Source of the DNA: Rhodoligotrophos defluvii
GTDB lineage: Bacteria > Pseudomonadota > Alphaproteobacteria > Rhizobiales > Im1
Length of the DNA: 64,000 nt
Reading direction: 5' to 3'
Assembly (NCBI RefSeq): GCF_005281615.1
Contig: NZ_SZZM01000002.1
Coordinates: forward strand, 186,001-250,000
Positions 14,890 through 19,005 of this stretch are shown one piece after another (the first letter of the stretch is position 1; every line of letters begins with the position of its first letter). Under the pieces are notes generated by a model. The model searched no databases and was not told the origin of the DNA. It was given only the letters and a program-made list of their open reading frames with translations. Made by a program: the position numbers and the translations under genes.

Positions 14890-15549
14890 ATGGCCGACAT
14901 TCTCCTGACCGGCTTTCAGCCCTATGGCGGGCGGCAGCTCAACCCCTCCGCCGAGGTCTTGCGCGCCCTCGGTGGCAGCAGCATCGAAGGCGCGACTGTG
15001 CGCACCCTGTTGCTCCCATGCTCATTCACCGCGGCCAAGGATCCGCTGGAGCAGGCCATCGCGACGCACCGGCCCACGGTTGTCCTTTCAACCGGCCTGT
15101 GGCCTGGCGAGCCAATGATCCGGCTGGAGCGGGTGGCCGTCAATCGCGCGAGCTTCGAGATCCCCGACAATGACGGCGCGCTCCTTCTCGATGATCCCGT
15201 CGACGCCCAGGGGCCGGTCGCCCGCGCCGTCACGCTGCCCGTCGGCCGCATCATCACGGCGCTGCGCCGCAAAGGCATTCCGGCGCGCACCTCCGATACC
15301 GCCGGCACCTTCCTCTGCAACGCCACGCTCTATCGCGCGCTGGCCGCCTGCGAGCAGGTGGGCCACGGTGCCCGCTGCGGCTTCCTCCATTTGCCCTATC
15401 TGCCGCAGCAGGTGGCGGAGCTGCTGGATGAGCTGAGCCAACAGGGCCAGCTCGAGCTTCACCAGCGGGCGGACCTTGCCTCCATGAGCCTCGACACGAT
15501 GGTGGAGGCGGTGCGCACCACCTTGGCCGTCTCAGTCGCCGGGGCTTGA
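14890..15549 (+). CDS. pcp: Pyroglutamyl-peptidase I (peptidase C15)
   Basis: 219 residues, close to the usual 213-220 of the family. The start ATG at 14890 follows AGGAGAAG. The N-terminus ILLTGFQPYGGRQLNPS is the family hallmark. The catalytic triad is visible: Glu80 in RLERVAVN, Cys143 in SDTAGTFLCNATLY, and His167 in GFLHLPYLP. The enzyme removes an N-terminal 5-oxoproline (pyroglutamate) from peptides in the cytoplasm. It is embedded between permease and ATPase genes of one importer, and the divergent operon encodes 5-oxoprolinase, so uptake, peptide cleavage and ring opening to glutamate form one route. Confidence 0.93.
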   Translation: MADILLTGFQPYGGRQLNPSAEVLRALGGSSIEGATVRTLLLPCSFTAAKDPLEQAIATHRPTVVLSTGLWPGEPMIRLERVAVNRASFEIPDNDGALLLDDPVDAQGPVARAVTLPVGRIITALRRKGIPARTSDTAGTFLCNATLYRALAACEQVGHGARCGFLHLPYLPQQVAELLDELSQQGQLELHQRADLASMSLDTMVEAVRTTLAVSVAGA

Positions 15550-15554
15550 GACCT

Positions 15555-16616
15555 ATGCCCGATCAGCCGCTCCTGCATGTCAGCCAGGTTGAAAAGAGCT
15601 TCGGCCCGCTGGTCACCGCAGCCGGCGTGGACCTGCAGGTGAGCAACGGCGAGTTCTTCACCATGCTCGGCCCGAGCGGCTCGGGCAAATCCACCGTCCT
15701 GCGCATGATCGCGGGGCTGGAGCAGCCGGATGCCGGCCGTATCCTGATCGGCGGCCAGGACGTGACCGAGCTTCCGCCTTGGCGCCGTGAGCTCGGCATG
15801 GTGTTCCAGCAATATGCGAACTTCCCCCACATGACGGTCGCACAGAATGTCGGCTATGGCCTGCGGCGCAAACCCATGGACCGCGGCGCCATCGCCAGGC
15901 GGGTATCGGAGCTCCTGGAGCTGGTCAATCTGCCGGGCTTCGAGCAACGGTCGGTCACCCGGCTTTCCGGCGGCGAGCAGCAGCGGGTCGCCATCGCTCG
16001 GGCGCTGGCGCCGCGGCCGCGGCTGTTGCTGCTGGACGAGCCGTTGTCCGCCCTGGACGAGAAGATCCGCCGGGAGATGCAGGCCCAGCTCAAGGATATC
16101 CAGCGCGCCACAGGAACGAGCTTCGTCTATGTCACCCATGACCAGGAAGAGGCGCTGACCATGAGCGACCGGGTGGCCGTGCTCAACCACGGGCACCTGG
16201 TGCAGGTTGATGAGCCGCACACGCTGTTCCGGCGCCCCAGGACCAAGTTCGTGGCGGACTTCTTCCGCGGCAGCAATGTGATCACCGGGCAGGTGTCCGA
16301 CGGTGCCTTTACCTGCGCGGCGTTTCGGCTGCCTGTCTCCGGCACGCAGGCCCGGCTGGCCGAGCCGCCGGCCGTGGCGATCCGTGGCGAGGATATCCGG
16401 ATCAACGGAACGCCGGGCCCTCAGGATCTCAGCTTTCCCGCCGAACTCGTCCGGATCACCTATCGCGGTGTCTATACCGATTATCAGCTGCGCCTCGCCG
16501 ATGGTCAGCTGATCACCGCTTCAGCCACCGCGAATCCGGGTGTCGACGTCGGCCAGTCCGTTGAGGTCGCAGTCGCCAAGGAGAGTGTGGTGCTCCTGGA
16601 GCCAGAGCCGGTCTGA
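15555..16616 (+). CDS. ABC transporter ATPase, PotA type (second system)
   Basis: 353 residues from the ATG at 15555; a TTG at 15546 overlapping the pcp stop is in frame but less likely. Motifs are Walker [15 protein letters not shown]-loop MVFQQYANFPHM, signature [15 protein letters not shown], Walker B LLLLDEPLSALD and switch YVTHDQEEA, followed by a TOBE-type C-terminal domain of about 110 residues. It completes the second importer. It is the last gene of the operon: the stop is followed after 6 bases by the left arm of a long inverted repeat. Confidence 0.92.
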   Translation: MPDQPLLHVSQVEKSFGPLVTAAGVDLQVSNGEFFTMLGPSGSGKSTVLRMIAGLEQPDAGRILIGGQDVTELPPWRRELGMVFQQYANFPHMTVAQNVGYGLRRKPMDRGAIARRVSELLELVNLPGFEQRSVTRLSGGEQQRVAIARALAPRPRLLLLDEPLSALDEKIRREMQAQLKDIQRATGTSFVYVTHDQEEALTMSDRVAVLNHGHLVQVDEPHTLFRRPRTKFVADFFRGSNVITGQVSDGAFTCAAFRLPVSGTQARLAEPPAVAIRGEDIRINGTPGPQDLSFPAELVRITYRGVYTDYQLRLADGQLITASATANPGVDVGQSVEVAVAKESVVLLEPEPV

Positions 16617-16622
16617 GCACGG

Positions 16623-16723
16623 CTTTCCGCGTGCATTGGGCCGGCAATTTCATGAGCTGAACCAGGAACTGGCGCTTCCATACTTCGTTCCGTCCCAAGT
16701 TGGCTTTGAATGCACGCGGAAAG
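16623..16723. repeat. Perfect 15-bp inverted repeat flanking the PRC-barrel gene promoter
   Basis: CTTTCCGCGTGCATT at 16623-16637 is exactly complementary to AATGCACGCGGAAAG at 16709-16723, with 71 bases between. The left arm begins 7 bases after the ATPase stop codon; the right arm contains the GGAAAG of the next gene's ribosome-binding site. The EcfG-type promoter lies inside the loop, so only read-through transcripts from upstream would carry both arms. Confidence 0.75.
16665..16689 (+). promoter_or_regulatory. EcfG-type (general stress) sigma factor promoter
   Basis: GGAAC at 16665-16669 and CGTT at 16686-16689 are separated by exactly 16 bases, the alphaproteobacterial EcfG/RpoE-like general-stress consensus (GGAAC-N16/17-CGTT). 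Predicted transcription starts near 16696, about 36 bases before the PRC-barrel ATG. PRC-barrel proteins are common members of this regulon, which supports the call. Confidence 0.7.
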
Positions 16724-16731
16724 GAACGAAG

Positions 16732-17553
16732 ATGTTGCAGAGGGCATCACAGCTCAACGGCTATTCCCTTCGCGCTACTGACGGGGAGATCGGCAGCGTG
16801 GATGATCTTCTCATCGATGATCAGTCCTGGACCGTGCGCTGGCTGGTCGTCGATACGGGCACCTGGCTCTCCGGCCGCCGCGTCTTGCTGCCGTCCTCTC
16901 ATTTGGGGAGGAGCGATCGCGAATTACGGCACATCGCCGTAGACCTGTCGCGGGAGCAAGTCAGGAACAGCCCGGACGTCGACACGCACAGGCCGGTATC
17001 GCGCCAGGTCGAAGCGTCAATCTACGGCTATTACGGCTGGAATCCCTATTGGTACGGGATACCGATGGCCTACGGGGCGCCCATGATAGCCGGGGCCGGC
17101 CTCGGCTATGGCGAGCTCCCACCATATCCGTTGGAGAGAAGAGAGGCCTCACCTGCCGACAACGCGATCGCCCGGCGCGCCACGGCAGAAGCCGAGAGGC
17201 AGCGCGAGGAGGACCAGCATCTGCGCAGCATCGCGGAAGTCACGGATTATTACATCGAGGCGAGCGACGGCGACATCGGTCACGTGGAGGACTTCCTCAT
17301 TGACGAAGACGCATGGGTGGTCCGCTATGTCATGGTCGATACGAAAAACTGGTGGCCAGGCAAGTTCGTGCTGATTGCGCCGGAGTGGGTGGAGGACATC
17401 CGCTGGAGCGAGCAAACGATCCGGGTCCAGCGCACGCGCGAAGACATTAAGAACGCGCCCGAATTCGATCCGTCGCGGCCGGTTGAACGCGATTACGAGG
17501 CGCGGCTCTACAACTACTATGGGCTTCCGCCCTATTGGCGGCCAACGGCTTGA
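16732..17553 (+). CDS. Double PRC-barrel domain protein
   Basis: 273 residues from the ATG at 16732, after GGAAAGGAACG; the frame is open upstream into the ATPase gene but that part is not conserved-looking. Two PRC-barrel domains are visible: residues about 8-95 (YSLRATDGEIGSVDDLLIDD, then WLVVDTGTWLSGRRVLLP) and about 165-255 (YYIEASDGDIGHVEDFLIDE, then YVMVDTKNWWPGKFVLIAP). A Tyr/Gly/Pro-rich linker separates them (YGYYGWNPYWYG). No signal peptide. PRC-barrels occur in stress and RNA- or membrane-associated proteins; the biochemical role here is unknown. The EcfG-like promoter suggests a general stress protein. Confidence 0.85.
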   Translation: MLQRASQLNGYSLRATDGEIGSVDDLLIDDQSWTVRWLVVDTGTWLSGRRVLLPSSHLGRSDRELRHIAVDLSREQVRNSPDVDTHRPVSRQVEASIYGYYGWNPYWYGIPMAYGAPMIAGAGLGYGELPPYPLERREASPADNAIARRATAEAERQREEDQHLRSIAEVTDYYIEASDGDIGHVEDFLIDEDAWVVRYVMVDTKNWWPGKFVLIAPEWVEDIRWSEQTIRVQRTREDIKNAPEFDPSRPVERDYEARLYNYYGLPPYWRPTA

Positions 17554-17577
17554 GACAAGCCGCCGGCGCTGCCCGTT

Positions 17578-17706
17578 CGATCGCTCCCATGGAGAGACGG
17601 CTGTGCCGGCCCTCACAACACCATCCCGCTTCTGCTGCTTGCGATAAATGTTGAGCCAGAGCTGGATCGCCCCTATTTGCCGAAAGGTGTTGTGAGGGAG
17701 CGATCG
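17578..17706 (+). repeat. Bipartite inverted repeat sequestering the ribosome-binding site of the P-loop gene
   Basis: The right arm has two joined segments: GGTGTTGTGAGGG (17686-17698) pairs with CCCTCACAACACC (17610-17622), and GGGAGCGATCG (17696-17706) pairs with CGATCGCTCCC (17578-17588). Together they could form a stem of 13 + 8 pairs with a roughly 21-base side bulge and a 63-base loop. GGGAG (17696-17700) is the Shine-Dalgarno of the ATG at 17708, so an RNA with this fold would mask translation initiation. Confidence 0.65.
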
Positions 17707-17707
17707 G

Positions 17708-18325
17708 ATGGGATTGATCATCAATCCGAGAGGAGCAGGCGGATCGGGGAAAACGGAACTGGTCCGCAGAATACTTGAGAAATACGGATGGATCCGCGGG
17801 GCATCGTGCAGCAATACTGGAATAGAGCTCATCAATCGACCTGGGCGCGGGCGCCCTTTCGGCTATCATATCCGGCATCCGGGACGCGGGCGGCCGCTTG
17901 TCGTCCTTGGCGATTATGAGGTGACGAGCGGCGGGTGCGACACGATCCCGATCGCTCATGGCGGCCTTGAGGAGATCGCGCGGTCCGCTGACGCCTTCGC
18001 GACCGCCGGACATGATGTTCTCATCGAAGGATTGGCATTGGGCGCGGACGTCAAATATTCGATGGCTCTGGCGCGTACGCACGACCTGCGCATTATCCGG
18101 CTGAGCACGCCGGTCGACCAGTGTGCACGTAATCTCGTCTCACGTCGGCGAATGCGCAGAGATCTGCTCCCGCAGGTTGAACGGACGACGGCGATGGTAG
18201 ACCGGCATATTGAAGGCGCCTGCCAGCAATTGCGTGCCTATGCGCATATCGAGGTTGCAGCTTTCGAAGACGCTCTCGCGCGCGCACTGTCGCTGCTCGG
18301 CATCGGGGCGTTCGAGGCGGCCTGA
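17708..18325 (+). CDS. Small P-loop ATPase/kinase-like protein, function unknown
   Basis: 205 residues. Walker A is GAGGSGKTELVRR (about residues 9-21) very near the N-terminus, and HDVLIEGLALGADVKYS (about 107-123) could carry a Walker-B-like acidic residue. Arg-rich VSRRRMRRDLLPQVERTTAMVDRH near 145-170 may serve as a lid. The layout resembles small AAA/kinase-like NTPases but no specific family is recognisable. It stands alone between the PRC-barrel gene and the leftward RraA cluster. Translation may be controlled by the inverted repeat that includes its ribosome-binding site. Confidence 0.7.
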   Translation: MGLIINPRGAGGSGKTELVRRILEKYGWIRGASCSNTGIELINRPGRGRPFGYHIRHPGRGRPLVVLGDYEVTSGGCDTIPIAHGGLEEIARSADAFATAGHDVLIEGLALGADVKYSMALARTHDLRIIRLSTPVDQCARNLVSRRRMRRDLLPQVERTTAMVDRHIEGACQQLRAYAHIEVAAFEDALARALSLLGIGAFEAA

Positions 18326-18408
18326 TCACGGGGGCGCGCTATTCGAGATCATCCGCCGCCCAGGCGTATTGATGGAGCCCGCCACGGCCGCTCAAGGCCT
18401 GCCCTGCC

Positions 18409-19005
18409 CTACTTGAGCCCGAGCAGTTCCAAAGTGGATTTGCCCTCCCGGATTTCGGCGAGGAAGATCTCCTCGCGCGCCCTGCGCATTTTCGCTTTTT
18501 CGAGGATGGATGAAATGTGGGTTCTCGGGAGACAAATCACCCCATCTCGGTCGCCGACGACCAAGTCTCCCTCTTGGATTGACACGCCGCCGATGAAAAC
18601 CGATGCGCCGGGCTCCCCCGCATAGCCCTTGGTCGTGCCGCTCAGGCCGACACCACGCGCGAACACCGGGAAGCGCAACTGTTCCAGCGCGGCGGTATCG
18701 CGAACACCACCGTTGACGACCACGCCTGCGACCTCGCGTTGTTGTGCCATCGCGGTGAGGATCTCGCCCCAGTAACCGCACGTCGCACCGGCCCCATCAA
18801 TCACCAGAACGGCGCCTTTGGGTGTCCGATCCATGGCCAAATGAATGGCGAGATTGTCTCCGGACGCACAGCGCACCGGATATGCAGGTCCGGCCAATTG
18901 AGCACCGGCCCACATCGCCCGGATGTCCGGCCCCAGCCAAGCCTGCAGCTTGGATGCCTCCAGCAGAGTTGCTGTGCCGAGCTGAAGAACCGCGGCGAGA
19001 TCCAC
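18409..19005 (-). CDS. RraA-family protein (aldolase/decarboxylase-like), copy 1
   Basis: 198 residues from a GTG whose first base directly follows the stop of copy 2. Conserved features are GPAYPVRC, the ALVIDGAG segment, a GEILTAMAQ helix and the metal/substrate motif GGVRD. Catalytic family members are 4-hydroxy-4-methyl-2-oxoglutarate or oxaloacetate-type Mg-dependent aldolases/decarboxylases; the E. coli RraA branch instead inhibits RNase E. Three adjacent copies next to a transporter favour catabolic roles. It is the last gene of the leftward cluster. Confidence 0.82.
   Translation of the reverse strand: MDLAAVLQLGTATLLEASKLQAWLGPDIRAMWAGAQLAGPAYPVRCASGDNLAIHLAMDRTPKGAVLVIDGAGATCGYWGEILTAMAQQREVAGVVVNGGVRDTAALEQLRFPVFARGVGLSGTTKGYAGEPGASVFIGGVSIQEGDLVVGDRDGVICLPRTHISSILEKAKMRRAREEIFLAEIREGKSTLELLGLK

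Follow-up and report, generated by a model that had tools for sequence, protein, structure and literature searches.

Does a PRC-barrel gene of Rhodoligotrophos defluvii carry in its own leader a device by which the start point of the RNA decides whether the gene is translated? The question is raised by a locus within the window, the whole stretch of 64,000 nucleotides analysed here (contig NZ_SZZM01000002.1, positions 186,001–250,000), where an EcfG-type promoter motif lies in the loop of an inverted repeat that reaches into the Shine–Dalgarno sequence (SD) of the gene (Table 1). The answer that we tentatively favour, with slightly less than even confidence, is that the locus is a translational insulator set by the RNA start point, so that the stress response would be the only, or at least the main, condition under which the protein is made. 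In particular, read-through RNA from the ABC operon upstream would bring two alternative anti-SD strands ahead of the PRC start, either of which alone would cover the SD. The main lock would be the promoter's own −10 region, pairing over the SD, and the back-up lock would be the 15-bp left arm of the repeat, favoured when a hairpin at the ABC stop codon (hairpin A) is open. An RNA started by an EcfG-type sigma factor at about 16697 would have an open SD because it would begin downstream of both anti-SD strands.

Table 1 Features of the locus, in coordinates of the window
Feature	Coordinates	Strand	Basis
ABC transporter ATP-binding gene, upstream operon, possible source of read-through	15546–16616	+	Pfam ABC_tran and TOBE_2; 90% identical match in same-genus genome G001
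Hairpin A, astride the ABC stop codon (UGA 16614–16616); pairs 7/15 left-arm bases (16630–16634, 16636–16637)	16607–16645	+	Pair probabilities 0.91–1.0; local fold −26.1 kcal/mol
Left arm of 15-bp inverted repeat, CTTTCCGCGTGCATT (putative back-up anti-SD strand)	16623–16637	+	Repeat search, folding
EcfG-type −35, GGAAC	16665–16669	+	Motif search
Main predicted anti-SD strand, CTTCGTTCC; contains the −10 and pairs with 16723–16731 (GGAACGAAG)	16683–16691	+	Repeat search; pair probability at least 0.97
EcfG-type −10, CGTT	16686–16689	+	Motif search
Predicted transcription start, 7–9 nt past CGTT	16696–16698	+	By analogy with S. meliloti RpoE2 promoters (PMC6180224)
Right arm of 15-bp repeat, AATGCACGCGGAAAG; overlaps SD	16709–16723	+	Repeat search
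Shine–Dalgarno sequence, GAAAGGA	16719–16725	+	Sequence
Double PRC-barrel protein, 273 aa	16732–17553	+	Pfam PRC, two stretches; homologue starts
Second repeat, left arm, in two blocks (17578–17588, 17610–17622)	17578–17622	+	Repeat search
Weak promoter-like site in second repeat, GTTGAG-N17-CTATTT	17650–17678	+	9/12 to an alphaproteobacterial consensus
Second repeat, right arm; holds SD GAGGGA	17686–17706	+	Repeat search
P-loop (kinase-like) ORF under second repeat, 205 aa	17708–18325	+	AAA_33 and Zeta_toxin below curated cut-offs; phrog_800 E 1e-4

Promoter, arms and sigma system

The original prediction described a perfect 15-bp inverted repeat enclosing GGAAC-N16-CGTT, and the sequence confirms it: the arms are complementary at 15 of 15 positions and 71 nt apart, with the promoter motif in the loop between them. 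Its placing of the ribosome-binding site in the right arm held in part, since the arm does overlap the SD but spans only GAAAG, five of its seven bases; the rest falls in a second inverted repeat that had not been listed. This second complementarity has a perfect core of 9 bp (16683–16691 with 16723–16731) within 14 nt that match at 86%. Its right strand spans the end of the SD and the spacer, and its left strand includes the −10 CGTT. The alignments of most full-length homologues begin at residue 1 or 2, which supports the ATG at 16732 as the start of the PRC gene. (Note that the PRC frame continues without a stop codon across the promoter as far back as a GTG at 16540; region 16540–16731.)

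The EcfG-type reading of the promoter is supported in so far as the motif is present and the genome encodes the system that uses such promoters: the genes for NepR, PhyR and an ECF sigma factor with sigma2 similarity of the PhyR type lie together, with a GGAAC-N17-CGTT 174 nt ahead of the NepR domain. Studies on Sphingomonas melonis (PMC6599016) and S. meliloti (PMC6180224) count PRC-barrel genes among the targets of EcfG/RpoE2. Among the other PRC-domain matches in the genome, seven of eight of which were examined, two have the motif, 327 and 542 nt before the domain; a third match with the motif (at −1320) belongs to the same ORF and the same motif copy as the one at −327. The start point predicted here follows from the S. 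meliloti RpoE2 promoter sequences, in whose printed form (PMC6180224) the last letter stands 7–9 nt after CGTT; that letter was taken to be the mapped start (one in lower case denoting a start mapped by both methods).

Taken by itself, the strict motif is weak evidence because it is rarer than its backward control: the two strands of 5.49 Mb hold 90 copies of GGAAC-N16/17-CGTT versus 135 of the backward pattern, so that it is not enriched and most copies are probably due to chance. From the genome frequency, simple arithmetic gives an expectation of about 4e-4 strict motifs in this loop on this strand. An SD-bearing ORF start was found at 20 of the 90 strict sites, by a filter that excluded the PRC gene (its frame being open upstream through the promoter) and from which the nepR site was also absent. 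The longest complement to the SD region was 4–6 nt in all 20, and the largest difference in opening cost between long and short RNA among them was 6.7 kcal/mol. Within the literature searches made, we found no report of an SD-hiding arrangement at EcfG promoters.

Predicted folding of read-through and promoter-started RNA

We modelled the read-through RNA as 16560–16790. In equilibrium folding of this RNA the 15-bp helix, which the original prediction had taken to be the lock on the SD, hardly forms (pair probability about 0.004) because hairpin A occupies seven of the 15 left-arm bases, and forcing the helix incurs a penalty of 4 kcal/mol. The main predicted anti-SD strand is instead the −10 region, which makes nine pairs with the SD region at a probability of at least 0.97. 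Opening the 20 nt from 16719 to 16738 was predicted to cost 13–14 kcal/mol in the read-through RNA versus 2.8–4.4 kcal/mol in RNA beginning at 16695 or 16697, and an RNA from 16638, without the left arm, was still closed (14.4 kcal/mol). The folding prediction thus supports the proposal that the SD is free in the short RNA and hidden in read-through RNA; comparing the two RNAs, as had been suggested, left the long one closed and the short one open, but with the 15-bp helix as a back-up only.

The two helices are predicted to act redundantly, with the −10 helix as the main lock and the 15-bp arm as a spare. When pairs were penalised, the cost of opening the SD core was 8.2 kcal/mol with all pairs allowed, 4.7 without the −10 helix and 10.3 without the 15-bp helix; without both it was 0.7, or 2.8 if hairpin A was penalised too. 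Moving the 5′ end downstream gave core costs of 10.9 kcal/mol at 16680, 8.6 at 16684, 3.9 at 16688 and 1.9 at 16692, and the predicted switch from closed to open would therefore lie at 5′ ends between 16684 and 16692, just before the predicted start. An RNA thermometer was rejected, as the predicted core opening of 8.2 kcal/mol at 37 °C was still 5.8 kcal/mol at 50 °C.

How far these values stand out depends on what is compared. When only the upstream part was shuffled with dinucleotides preserved, the real value was reached in 7 of 600 shuffles for the core and in 2 of 600 for the 20-nt region. In a sample of 179 genes of the genome (ORFs of at least 150 aa with an ATG and an SD of at least 5, the 17708 gene being out because an overlapping ORF was preferred), the PRC gene, itself included, ranked second in the difference between long and short RNA (start at −130 versus −37). 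In the long form, 38 of the 179, again counting the gene itself, were as closed as the PRC gene (mean 10.7, sd 4.0; PRC gene 13.5). The gene thus stands out by the extent to which its predicted short RNA opens, and not by the closure of the long RNA. Read-through RNA should accordingly not be taken to be fully silent, and the original statement that the gene is translated only from the stress promoter is overstated because so many sampled genes are equally closed. Comparing the strands lends an RNA role little support: the 15-bp repeat by itself gave −41.3 kcal/mol on either strand (z for 16600–16740, −3.1 sense and −1.9 antisense), and for the second repeat the antisense RNA folded slightly better (−56.0, z −4.2) than the sense RNA (−53.6, z −3.9), so that selection on the sense RNA leaves no sign in these values. 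The sequence elements and the genes of the sigma system are established, and the closed state, the open state and the redundancy of the helices are predictions from folding; use of the promoter, the existence of read-through RNA and a difference in translation between the two RNAs are inferred.

Rarity, relatives and rival explanations

The best-surviving alternative is that the complementarity is functionless, having arisen by chance or by a mutation (template switching) that duplicated sequence in inverted form in front of a gene of recent acquisition. Partial pairing of most SDs would in any case be expected of so G+C-rich a genome, and the many equally closed genes speak for this reading; we regard it as quite possible, if on balance doubtful. 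Repeat statistics bear on it. In 60 first-order Markov copies of the window there was no repeat of at least 15 bp with a loop of up to 110, and 864 kb of the same genome held two perfect repeats of at least 15 bp with loops of 20–130, the one studied here and one of 21 bp. The 864 kb held 12, 9 and 1 repeats of 12, 13 and 14 bp, where three Markov copies, none with a repeat longer than 14 bp, averaged 12.3, 3.7 and 1.3; the frequency of long-loop repeats of 13–14 bp thus ranges from the Markov rate to about 2.5 times that rate. By these counts the presence of one 15-bp repeat in the genome is nothing out of the ordinary: it is rare but possible by chance, and what is unusual is that it lies over an SD and encloses a promoter. 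(The 21-bp repeat, at L137:10403–10482, has a 38-nt loop and T-runs and is the longest in that sample.)

Within the quarter of the genome that was sampled, few SDs lie under a long repeat. Including spurious ORFs, we found four entries with a repeat of at least 11 bp over the SD region among 918 SD-bearing ORF starts: one 17-bp pair counted for two divergent ORFs, the PRC gene and the next gene at 17708. Extending the count to 1.264 Mb and 1348 such starts gave five entries with a perfect repeat of at least 13 bp whose right arm ends within the last 24 nt, namely the same four and a 13-bp case ending at −24, and three more of 11 bp. The two longest repeats that combine a long loop with an arm over the SD belong to adjacent genes, which argues for a common cause, an argument weakened by a third long-loop repeat over an SD, of 11 bp, elsewhere in the genome (L235). 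(As a separate observation, two inverted copies of a 17-nt self-symmetric site, perhaps a regulator's operator, lie between divergent ORFs at L111:18550–18636.)

The descent of the locus is the second ground on which the functionless reading stands. The PRC gene is patchy, with a match at 1e-30 in 14 of 397 genomes of the order, its own included, and no match in the two same-genus genomes (G001, G002) or the one same-family genome searched; at E 0.001 for the PRC protein and E 1e-10 for the P-loop protein, G001–G003 gave no match. The ABC gene, 90% identical in G001, marks a boundary, for within a few bases of its stop codon, at about 16620, the similarity ends and different sequence follows. 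On this account the PRC gene and its repeat, probably together with the next gene, would form an accessory block (16617–18325), and the stretch would be young or acquired.

Conservation of the arms in relatives, on which the original prediction had staked itself, was not found: the arrangement is absent in 34 of 34 homologues, as far as distant homologues can test it. No repeat of at least 8 bp lay over the SD in any of 29 homologues or five plasmid homologues, all of at most 54% identity, and GGAAC-N15-18-CGTT within 300 nt occurred in 3 of the 29 and none of the five. (The 29 come from 30 of 31 loci: L053 was left out as the same gene region as L051, the locus itself is uncounted and L015 gave no start; the starts of L016 and L020 are doubtful, L043 and L049 are look-alike copies in one genome, four loci are from records labelled Planctomycetaceae, Betaproteobacteria, Acidobacteria and Salinivirgaceae, and four weaker matches, L022–L025, stand outside the count. 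The plasmid homologues are five of 20 listed, from 50 records with a match, the start of L208 being taken two codons early.) The arm arrangement is thus not a family trait; because the best homologue is 54% identical and several are from other phyla, the 34 do not speak for close relatives, none of which turned up in the searches. Against the functionless reading count two independent complementarities that target the same SD, a predicted switch point that coincides with the predicted start, and a next gene that repeats the plan.

Rfam 15 gave no family at E 1 or better in 15500–18500. The stretch with the 15-bp repeat matched only itself in its own genome, and that with the second repeat (17578–17706) only itself in 61 genomes. 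In viral contigs the trimmed arm pair had no exact match, and no relatives of the PRC or P-loop proteins were confirmed; among phages nothing matched, and the plasmid matches, among those listed, fall in the PRC coding part. Integron attC sites have RYYYAAC/GTTRRRY ends; by eye there were none here, and attC was set aside. A repeated element was rejected, the arms having no other copy in the genome at 0–1 mismatch and eight at 2 mismatches.

A further alternative, which we think improbable, is an attenuator or end structure of the ABC operon, in which hairpin A and the competing long helix would stop transcription or protect the 3′ end while the cover over the SD would be accidental. Hairpin A, as stable as Table 1 indicates, does sit astride the ABC stop codon and occupies some of the bases that the 15-bp helix would need, but no U-run follows it, a terminator scan of 16400–18500 gave a single site at 18475 and none at hairpin A, and the main predicted lock on the SD involves neither hairpin A nor the left arm.

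Two readings of the arms as DNA sites, each very improbable, have against them the lack of any other arm copy at 0–1 mismatch. In the first, a regulator bound to the arms as a pair of operators would cover the promoter or loop the DNA; the perfect arms, about 86 bp apart, do flank the promoter, and their eight copies at 2 mismatches elsewhere in the genome compare with three for a backward control, but by eye the arms are not internally symmetric. An invertible promoter, in which a recombinase would flip the 71-bp segment between the arms as phase variation, can hardly be expected: invertons do have this layout, a promoter enclosed by perfect inverted repeats and followed by a gene, but 71 bp is a short loop for inversion, a Pfam scan found no recombinase or invertase among 12 proteins encoded between 7.7 and 25.0 kb (PRC included, several neighbours lying outside the scan), and the arms of the neighbouring repeat look unrelated by eye. 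Arms of 10–40 nt, a range that includes those here, are given for known invertons in PMC11892184.

Known systems and the neighbouring gene

Returning to the start-dependent lock on the SD, its closest precedent is gene e of phage T4. According to PMC3014915, RNA started upstream of gene e hides the SD in a helix, the DNA that encodes the 5′ strand of this helix contains the late promoters, and RNA from them, without that strand, is well translated, an effect of roughly 100-fold; the I-TevI leader is described alike, and soc and 49 are named as further SD-hiding structures. Here, too, a helix is predicted to cover the SD in upstream-started RNA, at a cost (8.2 kcal/mol for the core, 13–14 for 20 nt) that is not extreme for the genome, and the promoter likewise lies within the 5′ strand, its −10 CGTT being inside 16683–16691 and the core opening falling to 3.9 and 1.9 kcal/mol for RNAs from 16688 and 16692. 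Unlike the T4 cases, which concern phage genes and a late sigma factor, the locus is a chromosomal accessory gene with an EcfG-type motif and two alternative anti-SD strands, predicted from sequence and folding. It thus has the layout and the predicted folding of a lock of the T4 gene e type, and its distant homologues lack the arrangement. Start-dependent hiding of an SD is already known from T4; by this analogy, a chromosomal version with an EcfG motif would be new if functional.

Two other comparisons are instructive. In IS200 one stem-loop stops incoming transcripts and another then occludes the ribosome site (PMC3196728). The PRC locus resembles this plan but, unlike IS200, has no transposase. 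The SD structure of IS200 is present in its own transcript too, whereas here a start at the promoter would remove the structure; IS10 and IS50 are likewise protected against impinging transcription. PRC-barrel genes listed with a GGAAC...GTT promoter are SMb20522 of S. meliloti (PMC6180224) and #1478 of Sphingomonas melonis (PMC6599016); for neither do the available parts of these articles mention SD-hiding arms, unlike the PRC gene here. The S. meliloti plasmid homologue L207, whose identity with SMb20522 is not established, has no strict motif or arms upstream.

The neighbouring gene at 17708 suggests a wider claim. RNA from its weak promoter-like site would have its 5′ end near 17686, on the border of the second repeat's right arm, although a score such as that of this site is expected by chance 0.81 times per kb per strand. 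The predicted cost of opening its SD core falls from 13.4 kcal/mol in RNA from 17560 to 5.7 in RNA from 17686, and that of its 20-nt start region from 20.2 to 11.5, so that the latter stays fairly closed; shuffles of the upstream part reached the real value in 3 of 600 (core) and 19 of 600 (20-nt region). It is conceivable, if unlikely, that two consecutive accessory genes, for a PRC-barrel and a P-loop kinase-like protein, each carry a built-in, start-dependent translational insulator made of a promoter enclosed by an inverted repeat, with the SD for its right arm, and that they thereby obey only their own promoters wherever they land, the first with a −10 that doubles as an anti-SD strand.

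Were the start-dependent lock on the PRC gene real, a bacterial stress gene would be insulated from neighbouring operons by translation and not by a terminator, with a −10 element doing double duty, and the principle seen in phage T4 would extend to chromosomal, probably horizontally acquired genes. It would also supply a simple rule, whether the 5′ end of an RNA falls before or after the −10, that could be tested genome-wide.
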